Positions 1,745 to 64,000 of a DNA stretch of 64,000 bases are shown here, one piece after another (the stretch's first letter is position 1; every line of letters starts with the position of its first letter). A model generated the notes under the pieces. It saw only the letters and a program-made list of their open reading frames with translations, did not search any database and was not told the origin of the DNA. The stretch is taken from the NCBI GenBank assembly GCA_036874045.1, contig CM072339.1, positions 9,617,501 through 9,681,500 of the forward strand, in the 5' to 3' direction. The DNA comes from Cymodocea nodosa. Lineage: Eukaryota; Streptophyta; Magnoliopsida; Alismatales; Cymodoceaceae. The position numbers were made by a program, and so were the translations under genes.

Positions 1745-1749
1745 GAATA

Positions 1750-3095: not shown

Positions 3096-3098
3096 ACT

Positions 3099-6559: not shown

Positions 6560-6568
6560 TATAAAAGG
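6560..6568 (+). promoter_or_regulatory. TATA box of SIRE LTR (C1)
   Basis: TATAAAAGG at the position conserved in C2 (15781 and 25444) and, with one A lost, in C4 (46345). It lies about 520 bp before the LTR end. Confidence 0.65.
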
Positions 6569-19901: not shown

Positions 19902-21493
19902 AATGCTTAAACTACACATAAAAAGATAAAGATTATTGATGATGTTGTTCACCTCATAGATATTATATACTTATTATAAATATATAAAGTAATATCTAAA
20001 CTACTGCTTAAGATACTATGTATTTATTGTAAAATCATAGTAGTATCTTATTGATTTTAAGTAGTTTATCAATTTTAATGGTTTTTACAATTTTAAGTGG
20101 AAGTGTAAATGAAAAACATTAAATACTTCTTACATTCTAAAATTTTGATTAAATGTTTTCTTTGAATCAAGGAAAATGCATATGATCATGCATAAATTTG
20201 ACTTAATTGATTAAACTTGTAGAATAAGTTATATGTAACTCATCTTAAACTGTTAATCAAAAGTAAAAGCTTATTGAAACTGATTCATATTCTCAGTACA
20301 ATCATAGAAGTAAAAATTGTATGAGATTTGTGTTTCATTGCATCTGTATTAATGGAATACATATATACTGTGCTTAAAATGAAAAGTGCTTACAAAGTGA
20401 AAATCTTTGAGAGTTTATTGATCAGTTTGATCACGAGCCTTTTGTACATGAGTAGATAGGTATGTAAGGATTGTTGTCCTGAAAAGGGATTCTTTAAATC
20501 TGGCAACCTAAGGTCCTGATCAGATCTGAGATTGTTGACTGAAAGCTCATTACATGGGTACATTAGAAAGCACTTGTATGATTCAAGCTTTTCAAACTAA
20601 CTTTTAAAGAAAATTATCAATATTCACTTTTTTGAAAAAAAAAAAAAAATTGTTGTTTCATTAATTACAGATATCTTTGAATCACATATAGTTTCTACCA
20701 ATATGTCTACTGATTTATTGAATCAACATTAGTACCTTTGAAAACATTTTTTTGAGATACATTCTTTTATTCTCCTTGAATTAATCACATTGAGTTAACA
20801 GTTATGTCTTGATTCATATACAGTAGGAATTGATTCTGGAAATCATTTTTGATGATGTTAGGATAACGGAAGTCTCTGAAAAGAAAATTTAAAAGTATAG
20901 TTATACTTAACATCTATTGTCACTACAAGTATATTTTGTATTTTGATTGAATATATTTGAAGTATATTTGTAAGGAGAGGATTAGCAATGTCGAAAACAG
21001 ATTAACATAATTTATAATACAAGTCTTAGTTAATCTAAATTAATGTCCTCTTAAAATCTTGAAATAATTTAAAAAGACATACAAACTATTTTAGATTCAA
21101 AGGACAAAATGTTCAAATAGTTTACAATGTTCTCAAGATATTGTTAAGTTTAGCATGTGTGTTGTTTTCGAAACGTTTCAGTTGGAAGCATCCGAAAATT
21201 GTTTTAAGTGTACTAACTAGATGTTATGTTAAATAAGGTAACGTGTAAAACTGCCTCTAGACAGCGTTTTACTCGTTAGGTTAGTTAACTCAACGAGTTA
21301 TACTTGAATATTTCAGGCAATTCGATTGAATAAATTTTATTCAATATTTATTTAATTTCTAAACCCAACTTCTCTTCACGTTGAGTTATACGCCTAAAAA
21401 CCCTATTTAAACACTTATTACACGGGCACTTAGGTTATTTGTAAACTTTGTCAAGAAAATCTTTCCCGCTTGTTGCTATTACAACCTGCGACG
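19902..21493 (+). other. Non-coding post-pol module shared with Athila 3' UTR (C2)
   Basis: No gene seen. Collinear with 12613-14190 of C1, with an A-rich run at 20633-20650 and the inner purine tract weakened to gtaaggagagg near 20970. The end holds CTCGTTAGGTTAGTTAACTC-type palindromes at 21270-21305 and CACGTTGAGTTATACGCC at 21376, just before ORF-Y. Confidence 0.7.
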
Positions 21494-30630: not shown

Positions 30631-33216
30631 TCACAAGCCTCTTTGTCTTCGAAAAATACTGATTAGAGTGTCTAAAATTTGCTTTGCAATTTCTATACTT
30701 ACTCTGTTTATCTTATCAATTATTGCTTGATCTAAATCATTTTGTGAAACTTGTGATGGTTGCTGTAAAAATTTAGTATGGATGTTTGTATGTATACCTG
30801 TATTTGTATCTGTTTATATACCTATATTTATATCTGTATGTATACCGGTATTGATATCTGTATGTTGTTGTTCTGAAAATTGTGTAGATTGTTGTTGTTG
30901 CTGTTGTGATTGTGCTTGCCTATCTTATTATTGTTGTTGTCGGACTACAGGTGTATCTGCTTCCTGGTATTTTTGGAGTTCCTTTGCAGAGAAAGATCTT
31001 TACTTCAATCTTTTCTCTGGCCAAGGTGTAATATCTATTTGACTTGCCACAATTCTCAAAATCATATCACCATAAAATAATTTACTCTACAAATGTAAGA
31101 TATGAGAAACAAAAATATCATACCAGTTCACCTGTATATGGTTAATTAATGCATATGTAGCATAAAGACAACATCTGCCAACTTCTGCATCATGACCAAA
31201 CCTCTGAAACAATGAAGCATGTAGTATTTTTGCAATAAAACATGCTTGGCCATTTAAATTATTTAGTAATCTCATTGGTTTGTTGGCAGTTGGATCTTTG
31301 GCTAAACTTTGAATGTCTCATCCCAATTGATAAACCTGTTTTCTTTCTAATAATTTAACTCCTTCCTTTTTCAGACCAAGTACTTGATAAAGTAAATCTG
31401 GAGTTAAATATATGTCATTTTCTTGTATATTGGAAATAGGAATACTTTCGTCCACTATTAAGTTTAAGTAAAAACAACTGATAAGTTCGGATATAACAAG
31501 ATGGCTTGGCTATTGTGGAAGTAGAGTCAACAAGTTTTGAAATTCAAACATTTCTCGTATATATGTCATCCCTTCAAACTTAACTGGTCTTGAGTATAAA
31601 ATTGTAAAAGTTCTATATGTTTGAAATTTTTCATAATAGGAACTATTTTTGAACCATAATAATGTATTTTTGTGTAAACTCTATTCAGGATTAGGTATTT
31701 TCCTGTCATGATGTTCTGATCTGGGACTGGTTTCAAAATTATCAGCAGTATCTATATTCTCAGAGCTTTCAGAACTGGTGGAATTTCTTTCAAAGCTGGT
31801 ATAAATGTCTGAAATATCTATTATTGTCGTATCAATAATCTGCTGAAATTCTTATGTTTGTTCTTCTTGAGACATATGAGTAGCAATAGTCTCTATATCA
31901 ATCTATCTATCAGCAACATTTATATCTACGATTGATCTATACAACAACTGTCTCTGTAGGAAAGAATGTTCTATAATAGATTCATACTGTATTTCTGAAA
32001 TTTCTATACTTGAAACATTGGTAGTGTGATATTCAATATGTAACTATGTATGTTGTTGATTATATACATTTATCAACAAGTATATTATATATTGTAACAG
32101 ACATAACCATATGTATAAACTGTAGTATAAGCAACTATACCAAAAATCAAAAGTTTTTATCCGAGATACAGTTAGAGGAAGAATATCTGTGCATTCCTCT
32201 TCAGATGAAATATCTTCAACATTCATAGACTCAATGTCTATATCATCAAAATTGATATCATCTGTATATGTATCATCAAAATTTCCTACATGTTCTCTTT
32301 CCGTAGGAAAAGAATGTGTGCTTGCAACATGATATGAAAAACTGTCCATTGTATTAAAAGAAACATTATGCACTAATGTGACATAATACCTTAGAGTATA
32401 TGCATGTAATCCAATATTTGTCACATCGGTTGGGATTCCTAACACAAATGTCTATCCTGCTTCTGCAATGGAACATAGTTTTCCATTTTTCAATGATTCT
32501 TCTTTTTGCTGCATTATTCCTTCTACACCTGTAGTTAGTCCAAAATATTCTAATGTCTTTTTCTTTTTCCGACTATATGTTTGCAATGTTTCTGGTTGTT
32601 CAAGAGGTTCTAAAATTTTCTTAATTTCTCCTATTAAAGGCACCTGTGGTCGTGATGGTCCTTCACCATGATGCCTAGGTGGTAATAATGGATTATAGAG
32701 TTTTAAGCTCTCAACCTCTACCATTTTTAGTTGATAAACTTTTTGTCCTTCACTTCGAAGACCCATTTTCCTAATGGCAGTTTTCTGTTCATCTATATAC
32801 TATTGAATGTCATCTAAAACAACTAGGGGAAAATGATGTTGGGAATACAATGATTCTAATTCCTTATTTGCATTTTCTATCATTGGTCCCCATTTCTTTC
32901 CATAGTAAGTGATAGACTATATCGATTTTTCAGATATATGTCCAGAACTTGTAACAACCGTAGGGTTAGGTTGTAAAGTTCGTTTCCATTGTTGTAATAC
33001 GGAAAGTTCAGTCTATTTTAGTCTAAACTGTGTTTCAGCATAATTGCGAATAAACTTCCAACAGAAATTTTTCTCATCTTAAACAACTTTTCTAATTTCA
33101 TGCAATATTTCATTTGTAAAAGTGTACCTTGAGTAGATGTCATTGATTTCACTTTGCATTTTCTGAAATTCCAGCTCTCTTTTCTACACTTTTGTCATTC
33201 TACCACGTCCTGACAT
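30631..33216 (-). pseudogene. Accessory ORF of C3, related to ORF-Y and ORF-X
   Basis: Begins MSGRGRMTKV, comparable with the GRG-rich head of ORF-Y, then a TAG. The charged middle is open in 32452-32766 and 32044-32445. The conserved C-terminal half reads EGMTYIREMFEFQNLL, KILHASLFQRFGH and NHIQVNWYDIF. The tail is Gln-rich (CAA/CAG runs, seen as TGTTGTTG on the plus strand near 30895) and ends with a coiled coil and IFRRQRGL-stop. At least seven stops break it. It is the third family to carry this protein at the same place, between pol (lost here) and the 3' purine tract. Confidence 0.75.
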
Positions 33217-46363: not shown

Positions 46364-48610
46364 TGTTTGGTTACCCAACATGACACTAGAAAACTTGTTT
46401 GGATCTCCAGCAACGCACTAGAAAAACTTGGATTTGTTAACTTCTGTTTTTACTTAGTTAATTTATCTTTATGTCTATTCTTTTTTTTTATATAGAAATA
46501 AACAAACAACCTTTAATACAAGTTAGATATTAATTCCAATTTGTATTTTAACTGCAAGTGCACAGTGTCTATTGTATTAGTGTGCAAGTACAGGTCGATC
46601 CCACAAGGAATTGCTTAAGAATTGAGAACTGTTCCATTTTTAACAATCAAATTTACATATTCAATAAGCTCTCCGTTGAGTTACAGTTATCTCAACGGAG
46701 AAAGTTCATTGAGTTATGGCTAACTCAATGGACTAACCTCGTGGACTTACGTTAACTCCATGAGACCATCTTTTCTTTTTAATACTACTATTTACAGAGG
46801 AATTCGGCCAACCATTAGGCGGTTCCACATATTGTAAATAACATCAATTAAGCTCTTTAATGTTAGTAAACACTGGATTTATCATTAAGCAATACTAACA
46901 TTCAGATAATTCAAACAGTAACCATTAAAATCTTTAAGTCTTTTGAACGAACCAATTTCAGTAAATTGTAAAACTAAAACAAACATAAAACAATCACAAC
47001 ACTCACAAAGATAACATTAATCACGATACAACACAAACAACACAACACTCAAATACAAAATACAAACACAAATAAATTGTTTTTGGTATTTTTATTTTAA
47101 TATGAACATGGAAATGGGCGAAAGGTGAAATGTAAAGTAATCTCAGTCAACAGTAAATACTTCCATCACTTCATGCGACGCGATTACACCACTAAAAATT
47201 AAACCACTTACAATTCTGTCTCCTCTCCCTATAGAGTCGCGAGTCCAAAATTGTAAAATGATCTTCTCTTCAGCATACAGGCATCAACCTGAAACCAAGG
47301 CTAGAAGCTTTACGATCTCTTGAGATATGAGTTGGCGCTTGGTGAAAATGGCTTCCCTTCCCGCGACGCGATCACTCCTCACAGTGGTTGTCAAGCACTG
47401 TGTTTGGTTTGGAATCGACCCGACATTAGGAAAGTATTCTTACAGACCTCCGATGGTTGGTGATTATGGTGGTGGTGATGACAGTTGGTGTGGTACTTCA
47501 GAGAATTGCCGACACTATCTACAGAAAGCTCGGTGCTCCTCCACTGTACACACTGGCCACACCCATCGATCACACCTTTACTTCTTTTTCTTCTTTTCTT
47601 TTATATTTCTTCAATGGTAATTGCTTCTACTTGAATGGTCGGTTGGATTTCCTTCATTCATATCAACGACGATGATTTCTTCTCTCTGTGCGATACGTGC
47701 GATCGTGGTTTTTCCTTCCAACTGTCCTATTTCTGCAACCGCTATAGTGGCATATTAGAAAATAAGTAGTCCGTGTAAGTGAGTAGTGAAAGTTAACTCA
47801 ACGGACTTGCTTCATTGATTTAACTATAAAACATGTGCATAAATTTTACTATCCGATGCTCAGGAGCATTTCGGATACTTACAAACTTAACTATCCGATG
47901 CTCAGATGCATTTCGGATAGTTACAGATAACTCATCGATATATAACTTAAGTAAATCTACCAGATCTCAACACATGTCAGTAGTAGTTTAATAATAAAAG
48001 AAACATTTCGGAGAGTTACAGGTCTAACTATCCGATGCTCAGATGCATTTCAGATAGTTAGAGATAACTCACCGAAAATCCACTTAAGTCAATTTCCAGA
48101 ACATGACACGTGTTCATAGCTATTTTATAAATAAAAGGAGATTTCGGAGAGTTACACATATAACTATCTGATGCCCAATTGCAATTTCGGATAGTTAAAG
48201 ATAACTCACCGAAAGTTCACTTAAGTCATGCATTATGGTTTCGACACGTGTACTTCAGGAAATAATAAAATATTCTTTTAAAACATAACTGTTCGATAAT
48301 TTAAACATAACTATCTGATACATATTCAGTATGTTAAACATAACTGTCCGAAATATGTTCGGTATGTTAAACATAACTGTCCGAAGTATCAGAAAATTCA
48401 GATACATAAGGATTTCACAGCCTGCAACTTAGCGACAATTCAGAAATGTACTAAATTAACATTAATTCCCCAAAATTAAGCATATTCTTTAATTAAAGCT
48501 TATAACAGTGCAATTATAACATAATGGTTTAATTCTCATATGATAAGCTAAATATTATGCAATTAACCATCATTTAACCATTAATATTATGTACTTTTTC
48601 ATTCTAAACA
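46364..48610 (-). repeat. Athila 3' LTR (left)
   Basis: Ends TTCTAAACA at 48610 next to the purine tract. The first 62 bases have no counterpart in the 5' LTR. They form two imperfect copies of a ~33-bp unit, one of which (CTCCAGCAACGCACTAGAAAAACTTGG) resembles the PBS-LTR border at 61455-61482. Further right are GTTGAGTTA palindromes (46670-46765), the TATA box at 47598-47605, and three ~138-bp cassettes with CTTAAGT and CACGTGT (47943-48260). Confidence 0.9.
47598..47605 (-). promoter_or_regulatory. TATA box of Athila 3' LTR
   Basis: The sense strand reads TATAAAAG, with a purine-rich AAGAAGAAAAAG leader. Confidence 0.55.
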
Positions 48611-48621
48611 CTTCTCCCATA
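48611..48621 (-). other. Athila polypurine tract
   Basis: The sense strand reads GTATGGGAGAAG directly before TGTTTAGAATG; the other copy has tatgggggaag. Confidence 0.8.
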
Positions 48622-50402
48622 CCTAAATTTTGCTAGTCCCTTAGCAAACTAAGATCTAATTAATGGGTCCTTTTAAAAGTGCTAGAATTAATTCTTCTCC
48701 TTTTTTTTTCTTTTTTTTTTCTGTTCAGCATAAGAACTAGTATTATTATATAGATATTCTGTATGTTTCAATAATATTGTTTTCTCCTCTTCAACCTGAA
48801 AATATACTTAGAATATATGCAAATTACATACAAAGTATATCATCATCACATAGGTGTTAATTATATTATCGTTTGTTCTTCTTTTCATCATCTGTCATCC
48901 TGAATTTTCCAATAAGATTTCTAGAAGAAATTTCAACAACATATGAATCAAAGTACAATCCAATTCAATATGATTAAGACAAGTAGAATAAAGAATTGTA
49001 TCTCCATTAAACAACTTCAAAAGTCAATTATAGATTCATATTTCAACAATTCTAGATAATAGAAAGTATACTCAATTCATAAGATATCTGTATTTCACAA
49101 AACACTTGTATCTTTTCAGAACAATATATGTATTTTTGTACTTTAAAAGTTAATTTGACAAGCTTGAATCATACAAGAGCTTTCTAATGTACCCATGTAA
49201 CGAGCTTTCAGTCAACAATCCTATATTTGATCAGGATCTTAGGTTGCCAGATTTCAATAGTCCTTTTTAGGTCAACAATCCTTACATACCTATCTGCTCA
49301 AGTACAAAAGTCTTGTGATCAAACAAGTCAATAAACTCTCAAAAAAAAAAAAAAATTCTATTTTTTTTTTCTTTTCATATTACAAAACAAAAACATTAAT
49401 CACATACTGTATATGTACGTATTTCATTAATACAGATGTAGTAAACATCAATCTCATATAGTCCTGCTTTTATCATTTACTAAAAATATGAATCCATAAC
49501 AATAAGCTCATACTTTTTCTGTAGTTTAATAAGATCTACACATAAATCATTCTACAAGTTTAATCAATCAAATTAAATGTATCTTTAATCATATGTGTTT
49601 CATTTAATCTAGAATTCATATTTTCGCTCCTTCAAGACTTCAGATAATTTTTTCATTAAGCATTTTGATTTCATTTTAAAATTGTGAAACTGTTAAACTC
49701 ATGAAATTCAGAAAAAAAAAACATAAGATATTATATCTAGATTTGCATAAATAGTAAAGTATATAGCATATTATATAGACTTCTAAATATAACATTCAAG
49801 CAGTTACAGTTTATAAAAATTTTATAGTCTCAATTATCAAATAGTTACAACAAGTTCATAAAAATTTTCAATTTCCACAAAACTTTGCAGTACCATTTTA
49901 ATTCCTTTAGCTAACAAACTTACATGGTTGTTACTTTAATTACCTCCCCCCCATACCTACATTTTGCATTGTCCTCAATGTAAAAGATTTGACAATAAAT
50001 ACAATAATTGTAGCAGGCATGAATACAGTTTCGTTGATTTAGCACCTAACTCAACAAATGAGTTTAAATCTAAATTCAGGATAAGTAATCAGTTACATAC
50101 CTTGTTTCGTTTGTATCTCCTACATATTTCGATTTTTTTGATTCTGAAAAACTTTTCATTCACAGATAAAAGCAGAATATATAACATTTAACAATATTAG
50201 TGTCTTGTGTGGAACCCAGGCTCCTACACCTTTGGTGGCTCACAAGCAAGCCAATTGGTTTCCCAGAACAGATACCAACAAACTGGATTGATATTTTGTT
50301 TTTGTTTTCTTTTATAATATAAAATGAAAACTAACATTTTTTTTCTTTTTTTCTAAAAGTAAATGCAGAAGACACACAACATTAAACACACAAAATCACA
50401 GC
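48622..50402 (-). other. Athila 3' UTR
   Basis: Non-coding. The part between the two purine tracts (48622-49942) is homologous to the post-pol module of SIRE C1/C2 and to 36433-36915. It has homopolymer runs at 48695-48722 and 49339-49373. Between the inner tract and the F-box stop (49957-50402) the sequence is AT-rich and conserved with 990-1445, including short antisense reading frames that I do not consider genes. Confidence 0.7.
49943..49956 (-). other. Inner polypurine tract of Athila element
   Basis: The sense strand reads GTATGGGGGGGAGG after GAGGACAATGCAAAATGTAG. It is stronger than the terminal tract and could prime a second plus-strand start about 1.3 kb upstream of the LTR. Confidence 0.65.
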
Positions 50403-51540
50403 TTAAGAACATGATTGAAAAGTAGAAACAAATGGAATAAATGTGTCAGTCCAAGCAAACTTTTTAGGCATAATTATTCTTGCTATTAATTCTATTTTAA
50501 TGCCATTCTTGTTCCTTCTTAATTTGTAAACTTGTAATATATTATCAATGCTAAATACAAGTGTGTTACCATTAATAAAATGAAATACATAAAGGGATCC
50601 TTTTCGGTTCCAAGGTAATGTAGCAGTTTCTATTTCTACATCTATTTCAATATATTCCTCTTCCCACTTCCATTTCATTTATGTCTTTCATAATCCATAT
50701 TTGAAATTTCATCAATTCATCCCACCATCTTATCAGACATAAAGTAGGATCATCATATTCATTATACCACATTCCTATTTGAATTTTATCAAATTCTGCA
50801 GATGGTGGTTTAGCTATTTCTCTCGGTATAAGTAAAATTTCTATATATTCATCATAATTGTCTATGCTCACTATGTATAAATCAGATCTAAATGCAACTG
50901 ATATATCTGACACTAAATATACATATCCATCAAGTATGACATGCATGCTGTTAATTAATAATTTCTGTCCTAGATATATCATAATATTTTCAGTCCAAGA
51001 TCTATTTAGAAAATTATACACACTTAAGCGTAAATCTTCATCCCAATTTCCTATAGGTCTCCAATAATATAATTTTTCATGAATGGTAGAATTTTTATCA
51101 GAAAATATTAAAGCTGACCCACAATTTACAGTTGATACTTCATATTTATTAGGTCTTCCTATATTTCATTCTTCTCTTATTATAGGATTTCTTATCAAAA
51201 TATCAGGTAATAGACTTGCATACCTTGGTCTAGTTCTGTATATGATTAATCCTTCATCCATCCCCATAACATGATCTATTCCTTCTAATGTATTAGGTGG
51301 AATTCCAGTAGTTTCTTCCATATTCAGATATTCATAGGTAATTGAACTACGATTAAATGACTTCCATATGAATCCATCTCTAATCTTAGTTATTTTTGCA
51401 ACTTGTAGTCCCTGAAAATATTTTTCTCCAACACAGTCTTTAATTTCCTTTGATACACAACACAACCTGCACAGATCTTTAGCTGACAAGTTACTCAGTA
51501 CTTCCCTTAGTGCATCCAACGGTAATTGCATCAATTCCAT
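50403..51540 (-). pseudogene. F-box protein with F-box-associated (FBA) region, inside Athila element
   Basis: The sense frame starts MELMQLPLDALREVLSNL and continues SAKDLCRLCCVSKEIKDCV, a clear F-box, which docks substrate receptors to SKP1 in SCF ubiquitin ligases. The following ~330 residues look like a plant FBA region: RSWTENIMIY, ILDGYVYLVS, LIRWWDELMKFQIWIMKD, SLYVFHFINGNTLVF and ILQVYKL. At about 380 codons it has the usual length of such genes, and no intron is apparent. One TGA (51166-51168) and one frameshift near 50660 break it. It lies in sense orientation after the gag gene; its tail is conserved at 1446-1744 in a second copy. The target substrate is unknown. The 51594 start would add 18 residues; the ATG at 51540 fits F-box proteins better. 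Confidence 0.85.
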
Positions 51541-51604
51541 TTGTTGATTCTGTATAACACAAACAAAAATTTTAGCAGAGATAAAAATTAACATAACTAC
51601 TGCT

Positions 51605-51680
51605 CACCCTCGTGGAGTTAGGGCATAACTCAACGGACTAAGTTCATTGAGTTAAGGATTAACTCTATGATACAACTAAC
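51605..51680. repeat. GTTGAGTTA palindrome array, gag/F-box border
   Basis: CTCGTGGAGTTAGGGCATAACTCAACGG and TTCATTGAGTTAAGGATTAACTCTATG, two dyads in the 190 bases between the gag stop and the F-box start. Confidence 0.8.
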
Positions 51681-51730
51681 TATAAATAAACTTATATATA
51701 CATATAGTTACTTCAGTTATACTACTTCAT

Positions 51731-52960
51731 TCAGTTATCCTCCCAGAAGAGGTATCCATTTCATTAACAGTTCTATTGACAGGGTTAGGTATTGCTTGTA
51801 CTAGCAATCCTCCAGTAGGTCTAACTTCCATTGATTCCTTCTGTCTAAGTGGTATATTTCTATTCTGATTTTGAATTGCAGCATTTCCAAATACAAAATC
51901 CAAACGATTGTTTAATTGTTGGATTATCTTTTCTAATTTCTCTATTCTAGATTCTTGTTCAAGTAATGCTTCATAACTTATATTCTTCTCATTTACATTT
52001 TCTCCTCCCTAGAAATTGTTGTTTCTCCAAGATAAATTCGGGTGATTTCTTCAATTAGGATTATAAGAATTTCAAAAGTTATCTTTCTGGTTTCTAGCAT
52101 AAATAATATCTAAATCATTAATGTTTAGATTCTTTTCTACTAGCTTTTGATTTAATGATAACTCTTCTATTTTCTTTGTTAATTCAGTTAATTTCACTTC
52201 AAGCATAGTACTTGAATCTATTTCATGCATTCCTCTTTGCAATATTCTTTTATCTGTAATAGCTTCAACCAAGTTTTCCCACTGTGCAGTTCTTTTTGCA
52301 AAGTTTTCTAAATATGCCCATGCTTCTTCACTTCATAATTTCAGAAATCCATTTTGACAAGTAGATTCTAATAAAGATTTCGTTGAAACACCTATGCCTT
52401 CATAAATTATACCTATTAATTATGCTTTACTCATTGCATGATGTGGATATTGAGTCAGTAAATCTTTAAATCTTTCAAAATATTTCTAGAATGATTCACC
52501 CTATTTTTGGCTACACATTAATATTTCTTTTTAATCGTTTGATGTGTTGGATAATATTTTTCCAGAAAAATAGAGCAAAATTCAGTCCATGCATTTTCAT
52601 AATTTGACAAACTTCATTAAATTCTCTAAGAATATAATAGGCATCCTCTCTTTCTAATCCATGAAAATATGGTAATTGACTAATATAATTAGATTTCAGT
52701 TCAAGCTTATCTCCTTCAAAGTTTGGCAATCGAATACATAAAGGTTCATCAACTAATTCAGGATACAGAATTTCTCCTAATGGTTTTTCTACTAGAGCAG
52801 CCATCTCTACGTTCTCTTTTAAAGAAAGGTTAGTTACACCCCAAAGAATTTCGTTAAAGTCCAGTTCAGAAAATGTTTTAGTGCTCCTCTATGTTGAATA
52901 TTCTTGGGTAGGTGTTCTTACTAATCGTTTAGTGCTAAGAGAATGAGTCCATGTGTTCAT
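51731..52960 (-). pseudogene. gag: Gypsy Gag (capsid) gene located downstream of pol
   Basis: Likely ATG at 52960 (MNTWTHSLSTKRL), with one early TAG. 52511-52804 is open and carries the Gag capsid start: LPNFEGDKLELKSNYISQLP and FHGLEREDAYYILREFNEVC, the pattern of retrotransposon Gag (the PF03732 type as I know it). Downstream, with several stops and frameshifts, come ESFWKYFERFKDL, AWAYLENFAKRTAQWENLV and a NSYNPN/NHPNLSWRNNNF stretch typical of Athila/Tat Gag. It ends RITE-stop at 51731. No zinc knuckle is seen in it; the only knuckle of the element is in the ORF next to the PBS. In known Athila elements this gene precedes pol. Confidence 0.8.
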
Positions 52961-53254
52961 AAATAAACAACAGAAGATTAATTACATACTAGTCTGAAGC
53001 TTTCCATTCAATAAATATTTGTTGACGGACGAAGTCGAATCAACTGCCTCTCCTTCCAGTTCCCCCAACGCTTTTCTCCTTACTTTTAAAAGTGTTGGTG
53101 ACTCATAAATAACATTCTGTTTTATATATATAATGCACATCCATAAAGTGAGTAAATCTCGTTGCAAGAACATGTCTTGCAACGTATATCGTGGTTCCTA
53201 TTTTTATGGGTACGTGTACCACTATTAATTTCAAATTTTGGTAACCACTAAGCC

Positions 53255-53485
53255 AACGAAGTTTCGTTCATGGTTAAAAGAATAACTGTTCTACTTAATC
53301 CACGAACTAACCTCATTGAGTTACAGATAACTCAACGGAACAAAGTTGGTTACTGTTGCTAACTCCACGAACTAACCTCGTTGAGTTACAGATAACTCAA
53401 CGAAGTAACCTTATATTATATTACTGACCTTGTGGAGTTAAGTTTAACTCAATGAACTTACTTCGTTGAGTTAACACTTGGCAAC
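53255..53485. repeat. GTTGAGTTA palindrome array, ORF-X/gag border
   Basis: Three dyads: CTCATTGAGTTACAGATAACTCAACGG, CTCGTTGAGTTACAGATAACTCAACGA and TTGTGGAGTTAAGTTTAACTCAATG, alternating with CCACGAACTAACC spacers. Confidence 0.85.
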
Positions 53486-53903
53486 TTCTAAGTTTACTCT
53501 TCGTAAGTACCTCTTTGTTTTTTTCTCTGCATTCTGCTAATTGAAATAAAGTTAAATCTATGTCATTAATGCATCATTCTAATCAAAATTCGTTTAAATC
53601 TGAATGTTATATAAATATTTAACTTGCAGTTCATTTTATGTTATGCAGAATTTACATTTTACCTTGCAACATACAGAAATTTTCAAGCATCTATCCTATC
53701 ATTCAGCAAATTGTAAATCTGTTAAAAATTCATTCATAATGTTCCACAAATTATATAACATTCAATATATTCCATTCATTCCACATTCTAAACACACATG
53801 AAAAGTATATCTAAAAAATTATATTCATTCATATGAATCAATTACAATACAATCAAATCAGATATTTTTCATACAAATATATAAAAGTAGACGAACAATA
53901 CAA
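53486..53903 (-). other. AT-rich spacer after ORF-X
   Basis: No gene, repeat or conserved motif recognised. Confidence 0.5.
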
Positions 53904-56119
53904 TTAGCCTTTATTCCTAAGTTCATCTACTTCCTTCTAGAGTTTCTCTAATTGTTGCTCTAATTGATTAATTTTTTCTACAGCTCCTGTAATGCCTCCA
54001 AAAGGTACAGCAATCTCTGCAGCTACAAAATTTCTATACTCTTTCACTAAAATGGTTCTTGATTTGATCCTTTTTTATGCCCATTTAGTGAAATCGATAC
54101 AATCCACCATCAGCAGTGGAATCAAATCTCCATAAAACAATTTCTTCTTTACTGTTCTCAACTTAGAGATAAAAACTACAGACCAATTTATTTGAATTCT
54201 ATTTACAACTGCAAACGTGGCCCATTTGACAAATTGACTCAATTCTATATTATGGCCTTATCGTTGATAGACATTCTTAATCAAAATGTTGGCTATCATG
54301 TATGCTTTACCATTTAAATGTTTAAGTCTATTTAATAAAGGCACACTAGGATTGATAACCAAACTATCCTTGATTTCTTGTTCTGTCCATTCAACGGTAG
54401 TTGTACTTTCCAAAATTTCTTGTCCTTCATTTTTTAACCTAAAAATGTTGTGGAGAAGCTCAGGTGTTATCTGTACATCTGCTTCCTCCACGTTGGAAAC
54501 TAATTTTCCTTCTTCTTCTCTTAAGTTTGCATAAAAGCAGGGCACTAGATTCTCAAATACTGCATGCCCTCTTTCTTGAGAAATAAAATTCAGTAGACCT
54601 TGGAATTCAAATAATTCTTTGATTTTCTACATTCCGTCCCAATTTACTGGTCTACTGTATATAATATCATAACCCCCTAATTTCTTGGTATTTATGATAT
54701 GCTTCCTGACTCCAAAAATGTACTTCATTCAGAACTATTGCTTCAGTCGGGTCAGGAATGTGACTTTGTTGTTCCAAAGGGGGTTTGTTCTTGATCTTCC
54801 TCTTCCATATGCTGACTTTGAACATGTTCTACAGATTCCTAAATTTTTGCTTCTACTTTTGTCTGTGGTGGAGAGTTCTGTGAACTCTCCACTCTGTCTT
54901 GAATTATTTCCATAAATTGCTGAAGAGTTTCTTGCTCTTTAGTGGAATCTGCAAAGTCATTTTTGTCCAAATGGCTTCGTTCAGCTTCTTCATTTTCTGT
55001 TCTTTCTTCTTCCTCTTGACTACCAATCTACTCTATCACTGTTCTTTCTAATTCTATGGCAGATTGGGATGGAGTCACGGGCAATTCAGTTTCTGCCCTA
55101 ATTTTTGTTTCTTCTTGTACAGGTTGTAGACTAATTTCAACCTATTTTTCTTCTTCTCTTTGCTCTTGCTGTTGCTACTCCTACTCCTCCTCAGAATCGA
55201 ATAGTAGGTTTATAAAAATAGGCTCCACATGCCCTGTTGATGTTGGTACTTCAGATTTAATCTCATTTTGACATTTAGGCACTATCTCTTTTCATTTCCT
55301 TTGTATGATTAATTGTGCCTGGTCTTCCTCTTTTTCTTTTAAGATTAAATCTAAAAACAAAGGCTTTGCACGCCTTTGAGCCATAGGTACTGGCTCTTCC
55401 TGTTTAATTTTTTCAATAATTACTGGTCTCGAAGGACTAGCTTCAACTTCTTTTGTAGCAAATCTAACAACAGTTCTGGTAGTAACTTCTCGATGCTGTT
55501 CCACTTTAATTTTATATTGGGCTTTCAATTTCTCTACAACCCTCTTTTTGCGTAGTGCATTAAACACTAGATGTGCTTTGGCTACTGCTAAATCTTCTGG
55601 TTCTCCTTGGTTTCTTCCAACTTGAACCAGTCCTTGAAATTCTTTTAATTCTTCTTCAGTCGAAGGCCCCAACATTTTTGCTCGTGCCAACGACTTAAAT
55701 AGTGGAACTGAAGGTCCTGACTACTATTCCTCAAGAACAGGTCTTTCAGCAGTCGACTCCTATTCTTCCTCTACTTGTTGCTGCCTTATTGCACACCTTG
55801 CACGACCAGCAATGCACTTTTTGAACCATAATCTGGCTTTACGTTGGATTAGTTCTAGGGCTACTTCATTGTTCGGCCTTATTTTTCTTTCTTTGCTTAA
55901 AGCAATTTCTATTGCTACTTTTATTTTTGTTTCTACTATTTGGGGTATTTGTATACCCAAATCAACCAAAAATTTCCTCAAGTTGAAAAGTTCTGATTCT
56001 ACCTTTTGTAGCGCTTTTTCTCTTGTCGTGTTCTGAATCTTCTGCCCCGTGTGCCAATCCTCTGACTCTTTCAGAAACTGTGTTGTGTCCATTGCATCTT
56101 CTCAGAACTCAGGTGTCAT
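53904..56119 (-). pseudogene. Accessory ORF-X of complete Athila element
   Basis: About 740 codons from ATGACACC (56119) to LRNKG-stop (53904). The open parts are 55760-56092, 55292-55690 and 54258-54545. The head is ...ESEDWHTGQKIQ, then a basic coiled-coil-like region (EVALELIQRKARLWFKK), an acidic Glu-rich middle and the conserved C-terminal half. That half has CFYANLREEEGKL, ITPELLHNIFRLKNEG, NRLKHLNGKAYMIANILIKN and FGGITGAVEKINQLEQQLEK, the last a leucine-zipper-like end. The early TGA, a stop near 55021 and others kill it. It matches the plus-strand copy at 3985-6063 closely and the SIRE ORF-Y proteins in the second half. No signal peptide or membrane helix is visible. Function unknown. 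Confidence 0.8.
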
Positions 56120-56289
56120 TTTCCTAATAGTGGAGTTACACAACAGCACGGAATCGCTCTGATCTCTACTATTCTAAATTCTAAATGGTTTGCCAGATAA
56201 TGCCCCCAAAACCCTAGGTTTTAGTTTAAATAAGCCCTAAGTTTAGGTAAGTAATCGGGTCATTTCCCGAACCAACTATTGCTCTCTCA

Positions 56290-56410
56290 TCTGCGGTCTT
56301 ACCTACAGTACTCCATTGAGTTACAGTTAACTCAACGGAATAAGCTCGTTGACTAACTCAAGACTCAACGGAGTAAGCTCGTTGAGTTAAGCGTAACTCA
56401 ACGGACTTCC
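56290..56410. repeat. GTTGAGTTA palindrome array, pol/ORF-X border
   Basis: CTCCATTGAGTTACAGTTAACTCAACGG and CTCGTTGAGTTAAGCGTAACTCAACGG with a degenerate unit between; counterpart of 3655-3810. Confidence 0.85.
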
Positions 56411-56459
56411 CATACAAACAGATATAATAAATAAAATAAAATAAAAATACTTAAGATAA

Positions 56460-56645
56460 TAGTTTTTTTGTTTTTTACTAGTTTAACCGATACTATGTTT
56501 CGGTCAGACCTAATTTTTTTACCGATTGAACCGATACTATGTTTCGGTAAAACCAAAATTTTTTTTTTTTACTAAAAATTAATATATATATTTTTATGTT
56601 CCGATCATACCGATGGATCCAGTCGGTTAAACTGCAATGATTTTT
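56460..56645 (-). repeat. ACCGATACTATGTTTCGGT repeats
   Basis: Two near-perfect units GAACCGATACTATGTTTCGG/TAACCGATACTATGTTTCGG plus partial ones, with TTTTTTT runs between; counterpart of 3330-3640. An AT dinucleotide run lies at 56660-56680. Confidence 0.75.
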
Positions 56646-56709
56646 ATATTTTTAAATTTTATATATATATATATATATGTGTAAACATAAAATAAAAATT
56701 GATTTATTA

Positions 56710-57840
56710 CTAAGTAAAGCTCGAGTAGTCCTCTACTCTGACTTCTTCTATAATTCCAAAAGAACTTTTTGGTATTTTCAGAATAGGTCTAAGTCTTTGT
56801 CCATTTACTTTAAATATATTCTGATTTTTAGGATTTTCAATCTCAATAGCTCCATAAGGATAAATATTTTGAACTATGTAAGGTCCTGCCCATCTAGATC
56901 TTAATTTTCCTAGATGGTTATGGAGTCTAGCCATCTAAAGATATACTTCTTGTCCTATTTCAAAGCTTTTTGGAATAATTTCCCTATCATGCCAAAATTT
57001 CATTTTCTCTTTTTCTCTTACAGTCTTCGAATAAGCTTCATTTCTAAATTCTTCTAATTCAATTAATTGCATTTTCCTATTTTTAGAAGCTTAATTTAAA
57101 TTAGTGTTCAGAGTTTTTAATGCCCAATAAGCTTTATGTTCTATTTTAGTTTAAATGACAACTTTTTCCATATACTAGCCTAAAAGGTGACATACCTAAG
57201 CTTGTCTTATAAGCAGTTCTATAAGCCCAAAGTGCATCTATCAATCTATTAGCTCAATATGTTCTAGTAGAATTTACTACTTTTCTAAGATTAACTTAAT
57301 TTGTTTGTTTACACTTTCTACTTGTCCACTTGTTTGCAGATGATATGATGTTGCAATTTTGTAGTTTACTCCATATTTCTTTATTAAGGCTTCAAAACTT
57401 CTATTACAGAAATGAGTTCCTCTATCACTGATAATAGCTTTAGGTATTCCAAATCTGGCAAATATATTGGTTCTTATAAATTGTATTACCACTTTGTTGT
57501 CATTAGTTTTTGTAGGAATAGCTTCTATCCATTTAGATACATAATCCACCCCTAACAATATGTAAATAAATTGATTAGACATAGAAAATGGACCCATAAA
57601 ATCTATTCCCCACACATCAAAGATTTCAACCTCAACAATAGGATTAAGAGGCATCATATTCCTCTTTGATATTCTTCCTATTTGTTGACATCTTAAACAA
57701 TTTAAGCAATATTTATGAGCATCTTTGAATAGTGTTGGCCAATAAAATCCACATTGTAGAATTTTTGCAGCAGTTTTCCCTGAACCAAAATGCCCTCCAC
57801 AAGCTTGGTCATGACAGAAAGACAATATGCTCGGATATTC
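56710..57840 (-). pseudogene. pol: Athila integrase
   Basis: 57277-57825 is open: HHCC finger (CHDQACGGHFG ... CLNCLRCQQIG) with FYWP between, then the catalytic core with D in WGIDFMGPF, D in IISDRGTHF and E in TSGQVESVNK. The last two are 35 residues apart, the standard D,D-35-E spacing. The part between core and C-terminus (56935-57276) has stops and frame changes. The C-terminal GPY/F module (SRWAGPY, FKVNGQRLRP) is open in 56710-56934 and ends at the stop before the spacer repeats. The catalytic residues are intact, but the gene is broken by stops. Confidence 0.9.
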
Positions 57841-59460
57841 AATTTCGGGAACACACCTCCTTAAAACCAGATCAGGACATTTCTTAAATAAGTATGGGTC
57901 TTCCCAATAGTAATATTTTACTCTTGAGAAAAATAATTTCTTAATCCTATCTATTCCAATCCTTAGGTGTTAAACCAGTAACTAAGTAATTAACTATGTC
58001 TGCATACCAAGGTTTTGTGTTGATGGTCATTAATTGTTCATCAGGAAAATTATCCTTAATTTCAATATTTGATTTTTCTATTTGTAATATTGATAAATGA
58101 TTTGCTACTACATTCTCACAACCTTTTTTATCTTTAATTTCTAGATCAAATTCTTGTAATAATAATATCTATCAGATCAATCTAGGCTTAGTTTCTTTTT
58201 TTTTTATTAGATGTATTAAAGCTAAATAATCCATGTATACTATTACTTTATCTCCAATCAGATATGATCTAAACTTTTCTAAGGCAAACACAACAGCTAA
58301 TAGTTCTTTTTCAGTAGTTGTGTAATTACCTTGAGCATCATTTAAGGTTTTGCTTGCATAATGAATCACTCTAGGAGATTTTTCTATCTTCTGTCCCAAC
58401 ACTGCTCCTACAGCAAAATCAAATGCATCACACATTAATTCAAATGGATGGCTCCAATCAGGTGCTTGAATTATAGGAGTTGAAATTAAGCTAGTTTTAA
58501 GTCTGAAAAATGCTTCCTTGCAATTTTTATCAAAGTTAAATGGGACATCTTTTAATAGATTAGTTAAAGGTCTAGCTATTTTGCTAAAGTCTTTAATAAA
58601 TCTTCTATAAAAACCAGCATGTCCTAGAAATGATCTAATATCTTTTACTGATTTAGGTTCTGGTAGATTAGAAATTACTTCTATTTTAGCTTTATCTACT
58701 TCCAACCCTTTCTTAGAAACAACATGTCCTAAGACTATAATACCTTGTTTAACCACGAAGTGACATTTTTCCCAATTTAAAACCAGATTTTTTTCCACAC
58801 AGCGTTTTAATATTAGGTCTAAATTTTTTAAACAAACTTCATATGAGTTGCCATATACAATAAAATCATCCATAAATATTTCTAAAAAATCTTCAGTCAT
58901 TCCAGTAAATATGTCTTGCATACACCTTTGAAATGTGGCTGGTGCATTGCATAATCTGAATGGCATTCTCTTAAAAGCATAAGTTCCATTAGGATAGGTG
59001 AAAGTTGTTTTCTCTTGATCCTCTAATGCTACTGGAATTTGATTATAACCTGAATACCCATCTAGGAAACAAAAATATTTTTGCCCTACTAATCTTTCCA
59101 GCATTTGATCTATAAAAGGTAAGGGAAAATGATCTTTCTTAATCATAGCATTCAGCTATCTATAGTCTATGCATACTCTCCAGCTTGATTGAATTCTAGT
59201 AGGTATCAAGTCTTGACTTTCAATCCTAATAATTGTTAATCCTGATTTCTTGGGAACTACATGGATTGGACTAACCCACGAGCTATCAGAAATCGGATAA
59301 ATTATGTCATTATCTAACCATTTCACTATTTCCTTCCTGACTACATCTTTAATGTTTGGATTTAATCTCCTCTCAGGAATTCTAATAGGTTTAGCATTCT
59401 CTTCTAAATATATGTAGTGACAGTATAAAGTTGAACTTAACCCTTTTATATCAGTCATAG
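57841..59460 (-). pseudogene. pol: Athila reverse transcriptase and RNase H
   Basis: 59156-59458 holds the RT start (DIIYPISDSSWVSPIHVVPKK, RVCIDYR). A TAG at 59156 is followed by 58172-59146, 324 open codons: KKDHFPLPFIDQMLERL, CFLDGYSGYNQI, NAPATFQRCMQDIF, the active site FMDDFIVYG (gypsy form of YxDD), the thumb LGHVVSKKGLEVD and FLGHAGFYRRFI. RNase H then has LMCDAFDFAVGAVLG, TTTEKELLAVVFALEKF and VYMDYLALIHLI, where a His-rich TDH is usual. Stops follow near 58170 and downstream to the integrase. It is the longest intact gypsy domain in the window. Confidence 0.92.
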
Positions 59461-59461
59461 T

Positions 59462-60424
59462 TCATCCTATTGCTTCTTTATAACTTTTTACATCTTTTAA
59501 TTTAGCTATTTGATCCTCTTTTAAATCTGAAGCAATAATGATTGGACAGGTTCGTTTCTCTTCCAGAAATATATAGGTTAATTCAGGAGGTAAATGTTTT
59601 AATTCTAAATGTTGCCCATCAGAAGCTAGAGCTCCTAATTGAACATCATCATTTTCTAAATTAATTTCTTCTAGATCTCCTTCTATATTTATGCTTTCAC
59701 TATCCTCTAAAGTTTCAGAATTGATTTGCCTATTTAATTCTTCTTGAATCATATCATCTAACATATCTCCTTCATCCTCTAAAAAGTCCATGGTATGTAA
59801 GGACATTTCTAACTCCTCGAACCTTTCTGGTTTGAAATTATTTAATTAAGTATCTTCATTGCCATATGATAACTTCATTACTCCAGTTTTACAATTTATA
59901 ACCGTCCCTGATGTTGCTAAAAATGGCATTCCCAAAATTAAAGATGTTTCACTATTTTTATGCTTAATTTATTGGGAATCCAAAATTACAATATCAATAG
60001 GATATACAAAGTTTTTGATTTTACTTAAAACATCCTCTATTTTTCCTCTAGGGTATCTTATACTTCTATCAGCTAATTGAATAACCGTACTAGTAGGAGT
60101 TAAGCCTTCTAATCCTAAGGATGCAAATATATCACTTGGCATAACATTTATACCTATACCTAAGTCTATTAAGGTTCTTTCTAGAATGATATTTCCTATG
60201 GTGCATGATATAACAAGGATTCCAGGATTAGATAACTTTTTAGGAATTTGTGGCAGAAATAGGGAACTACTTTGCTCAGCTAAAAAGACCTTCCTAAGAA
60301 CTTTTCACTCTCTTTTCTTAGTACACCAATCCTTTAGAAATTTAGCACAATGTGGCATTTTTTGCAATAGATCTAACAAAGAAATGTTAACTTGTACTTT
60401 TTCAAAAATTTCTCTGATTTTTTC
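59462..60424 (-). pseudogene. pol: Athila protease and protease-RT linker
   Basis: The linker 59462-59806 is open and ends LPPELTYIFLEEKRTCPII, the sequence that precedes RT in Athila elements. Upstream, with a TAA near 59970, is the aspartic protease: DLGIGINVMPSDIF (in Athila the D-S/T-G triplet is often D-L-G), QLADRSIRYPRGKIEDVL and LGMPFLATSGTVINC. It would cut the polyprotein. Frameshifts separate it from the zinc-knuckle ORF. Confidence 0.8.
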
Positions 60425-61402
60425 TTATTTTTCAGGTATTGTTTGTTGTAATCTTTCAGGTATTGTTTGTTGTAATATTTTAGGATAGGGTGCTAAAGAT
60501 TGTGATTTAAAAAATTCTTTTTCTGTCGTTTGATTTGTTTGATCATTTTTAGCTTCATTAGCAGATTCAGATTGTTCTTTAGTGATTTCTAGATTTTCAG
60601 CTATTATATTTTCATTATCGTTTTGATTTTTACTCTTATCTACCTTAATATTATTTTCATTTTGAGTTCTTGGTGGTATATCAGTTCCATATCTTAATGT
60701 TACACATACATCTTCTAGATTTTCGTTACTCTCATGATGTTTTTGTATATCATTTTCGTGATTATGATCTTCAATTGTTTTTAGTTTTAAAGTGCATTCT
60801 TTAAATTCTCTTGCATTAATATTTTCTTTTTGCTGTATATTTTGCAAATTATGCAGATCTATAACATTATAATTTTCATTGTCCTGTTGCATAACTTGTA
60901 TTTTCATTGTATATTCGTCCAATGCTTTTAATTTTCTTTCCAGATCATCTAATCTCATTGCATTCAATTTTTGATCAATTTTCATTATGGTTTTTTCAGT
61001 TTCGTAAATTATATCCATTTTAGGTTTTGAATATGCTTCCTTATAGTTTAATTGGTTGACTTCTTGTTGCTGACACATAAAGTATTCTAGTTTATCCAGG
61101 TTTTGCTCTATACTACGCTCCAGTCTGTCATACCTATCCCAAACTTTCGTGTCTCTCAACATATTACACATTTTATACTGACCATCAGTTGGGTAAACTA
61201 TAGAATTCTCATACTCAGCTCTATTATATTGAGGATAATTCATTTGTTGTTCATGGGATCTAGCCATCTGTAAACATCTCAGTTTCAAACAGTCAGAAAT
61301 ATCATGATCTTCAGAATTGCATAATTCACATATGCTAACTACAAGTTTCAGAAATATTTGAGCATAAGCATATGCCATATTCTCAATTACAGAAGAAATC
61401 AC
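60425..61402 (-). pseudogene. Zinc-knuckle ORF next to the PBS (nucleocapsid-like head and linker)
   Basis: 325 open codons starting only ~50 bases after the PBS; MAYAYAQIF at 61378 is a likely start. About 20-25 residues in is ICELCNSEDHDISDC, a CX2CX4HX4C knuckle that should bind RNA. The rest is a long hydrophilic, coiled-coil linker (ERSIEQNLDKLEYF, IMKIDQKLNAMRLDDLERKL) rich in Asn/Gln/Glu that leads towards protease and ends with two ILQQTIPERLQ-like repeats. No capsid domain precedes the knuckle; the capsid gene of this element lies 8 kb downstream at 51731-52960. Confidence 0.75.
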
Positions 61403-61454
61403 ACAACACTCTAGCTATTAAAATGAAACAACTCTAACAGTTGCTTATATTAAT

Positions 61455-61472
61455 TCCCCAGCAATGGCGCCA
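61455..61472 (-). other. Athila primer binding site (tRNA-Asp type)
   Basis: The sense strand reads TGGCGCCATTGCTGGGGA, close to the TGGCGCCGTTGCCGGGGA that Athila elements use to bind tRNA-Asp (from memory); two transitions differ. Confidence 0.85.
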
Positions 61473-63642
61473 TAAAACTTGGATTTGTTAACTTCTATTT
61501 TTACTTAGTTAATTTATCTTTATGCCTATTCCTTTTTTAGAAGTAAATAAACAACCTTTTACACAAATTAGATTTTAATTCCAATTTGTATTTTAACTGC
61601 AAGTGCACAGTATCTACTGTATTAGTATGCAAGTACAGGTCGATCCCACAGGGAATTGCTTAAGAATAGAGAACTGTTCCGTTTTGAACAATCAAATTTA
61701 TATATTCAATAAGCTCTCCATTGAATTACAGTTAACTCAACGGACAAAGTTCGTTGAGTTATGACTAACTCAACGGACTAACCTCGTGGACTTAAGTTAA
61801 CTCCACGAGCCTGTCTTTCTAATTTAATACTACTATTTATAGAGGAATTCGGCCAACCATTGGGCGGTTCCACAGATTGTAAATAACATCAATTAAGCTC
61901 TTTAATGTTAGTAAACATTGGATTTATCATTAAGCATACTAACATTCAGATAATTCAAACAGTAACCATTAAAATCTTTAAGTCTTTTGAACAAACCAAT
62001 TTCAGTAAACTGTAAAACTAAAACAAACATAAAACAATCACAACACTAACAAAGATAACATTAATCATGATACAACACAAATAACACAACACTAAAATAC
62101 AAAATACAAACACAGATAACTTGTTTTTCATATTTTTGTTTTAATATGAACATGGAAATGGGTGAAAGGTGAAATGTAAAGTAATCTCAGTCAACAGTAA
62201 ATAATTCCGTCACTACATGCAATTACACCATTGAAAATTAAACCACTTACAATTCTATCTCCTCTCCCTATAGAATCGTGAGTCCAGAATTGCAAAATGA
62301 TTTCCTCTTCAGCATACAGGCATCAACCCGAAACCAAGGCTAGAAGCTTTACGATCTCCTGAGATATGAGCCGGCGCTTGGTGAAAATGGCTTCCCTTCC
62401 CGCGACGTGATCACTCCTCACAGTGGTTGTTAGGCACTGTGTTTGGCTCAAAATCGACCCGACATCAGGAAAGTATTCTCACAGACCTCCGATGGTTGGT
62501 GATTATGGTGGTGGTGATGACGGTTGGTGTGGTACTTCAAAGAATTACCGACACTATCTACAGAAAGCTCGGTGCTCCTCCTTTGTACACACTGGCCACA
62601 CCCATCGATCACACCTTTACTTCTTTTTCTTCTTTTCTTTTATATTTCTTCAATGGTAACTGCTTCTACTTGAATGGTCGGTTGGATTTCCTTCATTCAT
62701 ATCAATGATGATGATTTCTTCTCTCTGCGCGATACGTGAGATCGTGGTTTTTCCTTCCAACTGTCTTGTTTCTGCAACCGCTACAGTGGCATATTAGAAA
62801 ATAAATAGTCCATGGAGTTACAAATAACTCAACAGACTTGCTTCGTTGATTTAACTATAAAACATGTGCATAAATTTTACTATCTGATGCTCAGGTGCAT
62901 TTCGGATACTTACAAACTTAACTATTTGATGCTCAGATGCATTTCGGATAGTTATAGATAACTCACCGATATATAACTTAAGTAAATCTACCAGATCTCG
63001 ACATGTGTCAGCAGTAGTTTAATAATAAAAGAAACATTTCGGAGAGTTACAGGTCTAACTATCCGATGCTCAGATGCATTTCGGATAGTTAGAGATAACT
63101 CACCGAAAATCCACTTAAGTCACTTTCCCAGAACATGACATGTGTTCATAGCTATTTTATAAATAAAAGGAGATTTCGAAGAGTTACACATATAACTATC
63201 CAATGCCCAACTGCAATTTCGGATAGTTATAGATAACTCACCGAAAGTTCACTTAAGTCATGCATTATGGTTTTGACACGTGTACTTTAGGAAATAATAA
63301 AATATTCTTTTAAAACATAACTGTTCGGTAATTTAAACATAACTATCTGATACATGTTTGGTATGTTAAACATAACTGTCTGAAATATATTCAGTATGTT
63401 AAACATAACTGTCCGAAATATCAGAAAATTCGAATACTTAAGTATTTCACAGCCTGCAACTTACCGATAGTTCAGAAATGTACTAAATTAACATTAATTC
63501 CCCAAAATTAAGCAGATTCTTTAATTAAAGTTTATAACAGTGCAATTATAACATAATGGTTTAATTCTCATATGATAAGCTAAATATTATGCAATTAACC
63601 ATCATTTAACCGTTAATATTATGCACTTTTTCATTCTAAACA
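61473..63642 (-). repeat. Athila 5' LTR (right)
   Basis: 2170 bp, from the PBS to TTCTAAACA at 63642. Same internal layout as the 3' LTR: palindromes at 61715-61805, TATA at 62637, three ~138-bp cassettes (62975-63290). It lacks the 62-bp end piece of the 3' LTR, so the LTR-PBS border is sharp but lacks the usual CA. Confidence 0.9.
62637..62644 (-). promoter_or_regulatory. TATA box of Athila 5' LTR
   Basis: The sense strand reads TATAAAAG. As part of the 5' LTR this is the presumed promoter of the element's genomic RNA. Confidence 0.65.
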
Positions 63643-63647
63643 ATTCT
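63643..63647 (+). repeat. Target site duplication of Athila element, right
   Basis: ATTCT, as at 46359-46363. Confidence 0.85.
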
Positions 63648-64000
63648 CGTTGATCAATTATCCCTACACACCAAAAGAAATATCTTTTCAGGGATCAAAA
63701 ACACCTCTTCGGAGAAAAGCTCTTAGATAGAAGCAAATTCAGTAAAGCAAAGAATGTCAAATATATGTCACTAAAGATTTGAAGAAGAAGAAAGCAAATT
63801 CGGTGAAGCAAAGAAAGTCAGATATTTGTCACTGAAGAATTGTAGAAGAAGAAGAAGAAGAAGAAAAATCTCAAATAGGGAAAAATGTTTTAAATTCCGT
63901 AAATTAGTTTTCTCTATTTGTAGTTATGAAATTGATTAGATAAAACATGATATCGTTATATAATTGCATCTACAGTTTTAGAGGAGAATTGAATTGTATA
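63648..64000 (+). repeat. SIRE LTR of C4, continued
   Basis: Resumes at CGTTGATCAATTATCCC, matching 15800 onwards of the C2 LTR (and 6583 onwards of C1), with GAAGAAGAAGAAG before TCTCAAATAGGG. The window ends inside the LTR, before AATAAA. Confidence 0.9.

Follow-up and report, generated by a model that had tools for sequence, protein, structure and literature searches.

Introduction

An F-box gene situated between long terminal repeats (LTRs) and termed an 'LTR-gene' has been named in Thlaspi (PMC8764390), and in pepper about 72% of the LTR-retroduplicated NLRs were reported from elements that lack both gag and pol (PMC5664825). Gypsy elements of Phalaenopsis were found to carry a 2-ODD (m6A demethylase) domain, and the screening of 121 angiosperm genomes revealed 15 frequent extra domains (PMC9289625). 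Other open reading frames (ORFs) of LTR elements are called env-like for their transmembrane features, and splicing has been reported for Bagy2 (PMC7264820); the Athila ORF-1 domain PF03078 is present in 16% of Athila elements (PMC6317226). Vandal transposons encode anti-silencing proteins (PMC11728184), and polerovirus P0 and host FBW2, which are F-box or F-box-like proteins, act on AGO1 (PMC6593998, PMC7582759, PMC9035678, PMC2914764). Here, an F-box/FBA gene is described that lies at positions 50403-51540 (minus strand) of a 64,000-nucleotide stretch of Cymodocea nodosa DNA (assembly GCA_036874045.1, contig CM072339.1, 9,617,501 to 9,681,500), hereafter the window, inside a single LTR element of 17.3 kb that spans 46364-63642.

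How does this locus compare with the described systems? Like the Thlaspi LTR-gene, it is a host-type F-box gene between LTRs. The pepper NLRs are host-type genes between LTRs as well, whereas the present gene belongs to a multi-copy unit with gag and pol. As in the 2-ODD Gypsy elements of Phalaenopsis, a cellular-type domain has been gained by Ty3/gypsy and kept over many copies, although the domain differs. In contrast to the env-like ORFs, the product here is an F-box/FBA protein encoded behind a displaced gag. P0 and FBW2 are comparable as proteins of F-box or F-box-like type. The literature searched, outside subscription papers and supplements, yielded one F-box gene between LTRs, that of Thlaspi, and no case in which such a gene forms part of a multi-copy element; a count of the term 'f-box' gave zero for the main text of each of PMC11963269, PMC9289625, PMC5664825, PMC11728184, PMC6317226 and PMC7264820. 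As a whole, the data described below are best explained by a multi-copy family of Ty3/gypsy elements, probably Athila-like, that carries the F-box gene as a regular accessory gene, which we consider very probable.

The F-box gene is amplified with its element

The genome (374.6 Mb in 28 contigs) was searched with the N-terminal piece of the F-box gene. This piece was found at no fewer than 150 places including the window, and the places other than the window are 86-93% identical to it, both statements referring to the best 150 of 4,920 first-look candidates. Twenty copies with flanks were drawn from the upper part of the match list and annotated with the modules of the window element. At least part of gag was found directly upstream of the F-box gene, in sense orientation, in all 20, and the 3' untranslated region (UTR) directly downstream in 19, the exception being L010. 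Further upstream, ORFx, an ORF in env position, is present in 18 copies (not in L010 and L023), and further downstream the family LTR is present in sense orientation, again in 18 (not in L010 and L022). Four of the five stretches that reach further upstream (L050-L053) contain the first ORF, the protease and the reverse transcriptase (RT) in order, and in three of them (L050-L052) the integrase and ORFx come next, shortened in L052. The gene has the sense position between pol and the 3' LTR that characterizes a conserved additional ORF (aORF-3'): it stands in sense behind gag in 20 of 20 copies, and protease and RT lie upstream in the four stretches just mentioned. In L010, another member of the family is inserted on the opposite strand within the F-box gene.

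The flanks of seven copies were compared, and one of the 21 pairs was found to be similar, at a shifted position, therefore representing a different insertion site. In a second element, read across L053 and L017, the target duplication contains one mismatch and the LTRs have diverged by K=0.09. In the window itself, ATTCT stands on either border of 46364-63642 as a 5-bp target duplication, and the joined flanks align, unbroken and at 87%, to window positions 6378-6839, where a relative of the target stands without an insertion (empty site). The two LTRs, of about 2.2 kb each, match at 92.8% (46423-48616 against 61474-63648) and have diverged by K=0.066. The window element is a single insertion with paired LTRs and a 5-bp target duplication. 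The position, copy number and common architecture of the F-box unit are established. The original prediction had held that the gene was amplified with its element and had proposed a genome search for copies flanked by gag and 3' UTR; the search returned such flanks in 20 and 19 of the 20 copies, respectively, and the at least 150 scored places disagree with the possibility, named with that prediction, of only two copies from one segmental duplication.

The boundaries proposed at the outset, with an ATG at 51540 and a stop at 50403 on the minus strand, are right. The description 'full-length' holds for length and fails for integrity, the window copy having one in-frame stop and one frameshift. 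The F-box domain was detected in the N-terminal frame (51166-51594; PF00646, E=7.4e-11) and the FBA domain in the middle piece (50650-51165; TIGR01640, E=3.1e-4, below the curated cut-off). In the copy L021, the F-box domain scores 38.8 bits against a cut-off of 20.5 (PF00646, E=7.5e-10) and the FBA domain 29.2 bits, with the cut-off at 37.9 (TIGR01640, E=5.5e-7), and PF07734 has E=0.046 in L025 and no match in L021. The complete frame of 378 amino acids is kept in two of 41 copies. Two pieces of the F-box gene and one of gag had no match in protein look-ups at E thresholds of 1e-3 and 1, a PDB search gave nothing convincing (best F-box match E=0.18), and a search among viral contigs gave no relative. 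The structure predicted for a 172-amino-acid window piece had a mean pLDDT of 35 and was set aside. Long minus-strand frames in some of the fetched copies were considered as antisense genes and rejected, the three that were scanned being the F-box gene in opposite-strand copies.

Constraint on the F-box frame

Indels were counted against the natural copy L021 in 40 copies; a copy was dropped for any stretch that it lacks or that a single alignment covers to less than 90%. F-box codons 125-378, which lie outside the search query, contain 10 frame-breaking indels over the 27,525 bases compared in 36 copies (0.36/kb). Indels that change frame length number 70 in 8,170 bases of 18 copies (8.6/kb) for the first 460 bp of the 3' UTR and 155 in 16,668 bases of 16 copies (9.3/kb) for the intergenic stretch, so that they are 24-26 times rarer in the F-box frame than in the adjoining non-coding stretches; gag has 12 frame-breaking indels in 15,930 bases of 17 copies (0.75/kb). 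Because the copies share history, distinct events were counted too, in the first set of 20 copies compared with L021 (16 to 19 passing): four in 765 bp of the F-box gene, 31 in 460 of the 3' UTR, 58 in 1,076 of the intergenic stretch and 11 in 939 of gag. Fisher values computed on the indels take no account of this common ancestry and were set aside. Substitution classes were compared in 41 F-box copies (L001, L009-L048), with the tails of four masked. Variants seen at least three times comprise 96 nonsynonymous and 50 synonymous changes (96N:50S) against 217N:68S among singletons (p=0.03, a weak test).

The frame was conserved before insertion, and the data suggest that the gene was kept readable during the multiplication of the element, which points to its use by the element. 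A dN/dS of 1 from the root, the outcome set against the original prediction, does not agree with the rarity of indels, with the shift in substitution classes or with the ratio of about 0.47 to a deeply diverged homologue (see below); selection on the frame is detectable.

The tree of 37 copies, with four truncated ones left out, is nearly star-shaped, and three of its 34 inner branches are well supported. One supported group consists of L018, L020 and L037 (contig C18), which are close copies, and L018 and L020 have a common rearranged 3' UTR/LTR; local duplication is the likely origin of this group. Stops recur at the same codons among the 41 copies and indels are rare, recurrent stops being what decay of methylated cytosines (deamination) would be expected to leave.

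Several observations weigh against the reading of the gene as a maintained accessory gene. The copies were located through the F-box itself, so the set consists of family members that carry it. L023 retains only 121 bp of gag, in L049 pieces of the LTR and the UTR were recognized and pol was not, and the integrase is missing in L053/L017, L053 ending in RT and the adjoining L017 starting in ORFx. The FBA matches lie below curated cut-offs, and a PF07734 profile search of the genome was empty, its control being equally silent. A complete F-box frame is absent in 39 of the 41 copies, although 20 of the 41 had been chosen mostly because their N-terminal match contained no stop, and the indel counts left out copies covered to less than 90% in one alignment. 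Mean substitutions relative to the window (17-20 copies each) are 6.05% in the F-box gene, barely under the 6.75% of the 3' UTR, though under the 9.0% of the intergenic stretch and the 9.6% of the LTR; gag has 5.6% and ORFx 12%. Singletons (217N:68S) and doubletons (67N:21S) are near the mutational expectation from transitions and transversions and fit neutrality, the variants seen at least three times have a transition ratio of 79:46, or 1.7 compared with about 2.0 expected, and 11 stop variants are common to at least three copies. The median pairwise dN/dS, 0.49 over 780 pairs that do not include L040, makes constraint look stronger than it is, since the method takes no account of transition bias. 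The within-family substitution evidence is modest, and the diverged lineage described next is known from a single locus.

A diverged F-box lineage

A genome search with TIGR01640 gave at least 148 matches with a best score of 49.8 bits, the best 150 places being scored. The best among the matches listed, L054, is a broken F-box/FBA gene whose protein is 42% and 35% identical to that of L021 in two segments over both domains, with dN 0.55 and dS 1.17 over 366 codons. In L055, the 950 bases that precede L054, an integrase C-terminus was found that resembles window positions 56713-56934 (53% over 45 residues, E=8e-15; the best of 200 shuffled controls gave 0.003). This integrase frame ends 153 bp before the ATG of the L054 F-box gene, and tblastn of L055 with gag and ORFx pieces gave no match. 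Because a second F-box gene follows an integrase end elsewhere, the association between F-box gene and retroelement may be old, and an F-box/FBA gene was likely present behind pol before two retroelement lineages of this genome split, as judged from one locus only.

A capsid gag behind pol

The gag profile PF03732 (Retrotrans_gag) matches the open natural copy L021 at 2161-3099 with E=1.4e-17, and the window's own gag pieces gave no match to a gag profile. The usual order, with the capsid gag upstream of pol, was not observed; Retrotrans_gag stands behind ORFx. In the three copies in which the junction was read (L051, L052 and L053), next to nothing separates the 5' LTR from the first ORF, and no capsid domain was detected in that ORF. 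A capsid gag behind pol and ORFx is an unusual order that is common to other copies; this position behind pol and the env-position ORF was missed in the original prediction. A narrow literature search of titles and abstract openings did not find the gag-behind-pol order described. Two local explanations were dropped, namely accidental nesting in the window, after other copies had been read, and loss of the gag N-terminus from the first ORF by a deletion in the window, L051-L053 having a like junction.

Could the unit be a composite, in which a pol-bearing element fused with a separate gag/F-box element and the fusion then multiplied? The place of the capsid gag, together with a first ORF that has a CCHC-like motif alone, would agree with such an origin, which we regard as possible though rather doubtful. 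Chance nesting at the window locus alone is unlikely in view of the order of pol followed by ORFx in three of five other stretches (a fourth being without integrase) and of the one target duplication that surrounds the whole unit.

Candidate signals for expression of the F-box gene

Just 5' of the F-box ATG, at 51541-51580 (minus strand), lies a T-rich tract ending in CAG that resembles a 3' splice site. The tract before the ATG is 97.3% identical and without indel in 20 copies compared with the window, and the acceptor AG is retained in 34 of 41 copies, seven having AA. A different T-rich tract ending in CAG precedes the ATG of the diverged F-box gene too. Read by the splice-site consensus, the conserved T-rich/CAG tract suggests a spliced F-box mRNA. 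In the window lineage, an in-frame ATG further upstream offers an alternative to the F-box ATG as the start. A sequence like a 5' splice site, AG/GTATGT, was observed in the 3' UTR at 50060-50105, in a stretch that is 96.7% conserved in 19 copies; it may mark a 3' UTR intron.

Organization of the window element

The modules of the window element, all on the minus strand, are arranged in sense order as 5' LTR, CCHC-like ORF, protease, RT, RNase H, integrase, ORFx, gag, F-box, 3' UTR and 3' LTR. The 5' LTR (61426-63642) and the 3' LTR (46364-48612) were delimited by the match of the pair, their ends and the flanking ATTCT. The first ORF after the LTR (60428-61414) has no convincing Pfam match and no capsid domain; it carries what we take to be a CCHC-like motif, and its counterpart in L052 gave a weak match to zf-CCHC_2 (E=0.28). 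The aspartic protease (59972-60304) matches PF13650 below the cut-off both in the window (E=0.029) and in L053 (E=0.0035). RT and RNase H (58175-59461) were identified by RVT_1 (E=1.4e-23) and RT_RNaseH (E=3.5e-28) over 58172-59146, and the integrase (56713-57969) by rve (E=2e-15) and H2C2 (E=3e-11); a 640-amino-acid frame of L050 shows RVT_1, RNase H, H2C2 and rve in the domain order of Ty3/gypsy. ORFx (53940-56101) is broken and resembles Transposase_32, with PF20167 below the cut-off in the window (E=0.0014) and in L014 (E=1.1e-6). The intergenic stretch between ORFx and gag (52900-53939) served as the non-coding control. The capsid gag ('gagB', 51730-52888) is broken and shorter than in other copies, such as the open L021, in which the domain was recognized. 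The F-box/FBA gene is followed by the 3' UTR (48613-50402), in which the purine-rich stretch adjoining the LTR is presumably the polypurine tract.

The Athila ORF-1 domain PF03078 had no match in the scanned ORFs, and for the lineage name Athila, given in the original prediction, the evidence is weak. A candidate primer-site copy inside the 3' LTR was dropped, an ordinary LTR end being found at that place in other copies. The sequence TAACTCAACGGA or a near-variant recurs together with its reverse at 46671-46758, 51600-51670, 53314-53403, 56311-56403 and 61716-61808, in LTR, intergenic and inter-ORF stretches. No Rfam match was found at gathering scores.

The second copy in the window and neighbouring elements

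A second, truncated copy at 1-1747 (minus strand) consists of 3' UTR and the final 300 bp of the F-box gene (1446-1744) and matches 48933-50705 at 89%. The F-box tail claimed for it is real, and over the tail each copy bears a lesion that is missing from the other. The two tails differ at 17 of 299 compared sites, and the counts of six synonymous and 10 nonsynonymous changes are too small for a test. The adjacent LTR at 1755-3095 has diverged from the element's LTRs by K 0.13-0.14, whereas the second copy's UTR/F-box has diverged from the element's by K 0.067; because it is twice as diverged, this LTR is perhaps not the second copy's own, and its use as proof of an independent insertion was dropped. 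The window data are compatible with duplication, a question settled by the genome search.

At 12888-13669 and 20179-20969, elements that from their motifs look like Ty1/copia contain about 760 bp similar, with 21-22% substitutions, to positions 48800-49595 in the 3' UTR of the element that bears the F-box gene, possibly through a module exchange between superfamilies. Frames in or near these copia-like elements at 23009-23305, 27063-27428 and 31201-31560 are homologous to the gypsy ORFx (28-38% identity, E 2e-8 to 1e-21).

Discussion

What might an F-box protein do for a retroelement? The pairing of an F-box with an FBA domain makes the product a likely SCF substrate receptor, as predicted from its domains. 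The protein would be made from an RNA spliced at an acceptor about 10 bases upstream of the ATG; its F-box would bind SKP1 and its FBA domain would bring a substrate to the SCF ubiquitin ligase, so that the element would have some protein removed. The likeliest class of substrate would be a host factor that limits the element, through silencing or capsid restriction, and the main alternative would be the element's own Gag. As FBW2 and P0 act on AGO1, a silencing target is a reasonable guess and no more. The anti-silencing proteins of Vandal transposons, named VANC, belong to a different class of element, and an element-encoded accessory protein directed against silencing would be a functional parallel. 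A wider scenario is offered tentatively: the clade may have carried its own SCF receptor since before the lineages split, as a counter-defence against a host silencing or restriction factor, and the window lineage may have moved gag behind pol, with gag and F-box forming a separately expressed 3' module.

The F-box protein may instead target products of the element itself, such as Gag, and thereby tune particle formation or copy number. The two genes adjoin in 20 of 20 copies and are similarly constrained, in keeping with this role, whereas the one diverged locus has only 153 bp, and no gag, between the integrase end and the F-box gene; self-regulation is conceivable, with the odds leaning against it. 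That a host F-box was captured once and copied without use, as a passive hitch-hiker, is improbable. Such a history would agree with the 39 broken frames, the neutral singletons and the 11 shared stop variants, and gene capture by plant LTR elements has been reported (PMC7264820, PMC5664825), but it leaves unexplained why indels in the frame are 24-26 times rarer than in adjoining non-coding sequence, about as rare as in gag, and why a homologue with 35-42% identity aligns over both domains behind another integrase end. That elements inserted by chance next to host F-box genes of one family, or that a single segmental duplication produced the two copies visible in the window, whose divergence equals that of the LTR pair (K 0.067 vs 0.066), is dismissed as exceedingly improbable, because the borders agree in 19 of 20 copies, on many contigs, and a target duplication lies outside the whole unit.

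The displaced gag raises the question of how such an element makes its capsid. The functions of the extra genes of plant LTR retrotransposons are mostly unknown, often since their proteins resemble nothing; here the job of an F-box, the choice of substrates for a ubiquitin ligase, is recognizable, and the partner can therefore be fished directly. If the proposed role is true, the protein would be a retroelement counterpart of the viral F-box proteins and would offer a way to the host proteins that restrict retrotransposons.
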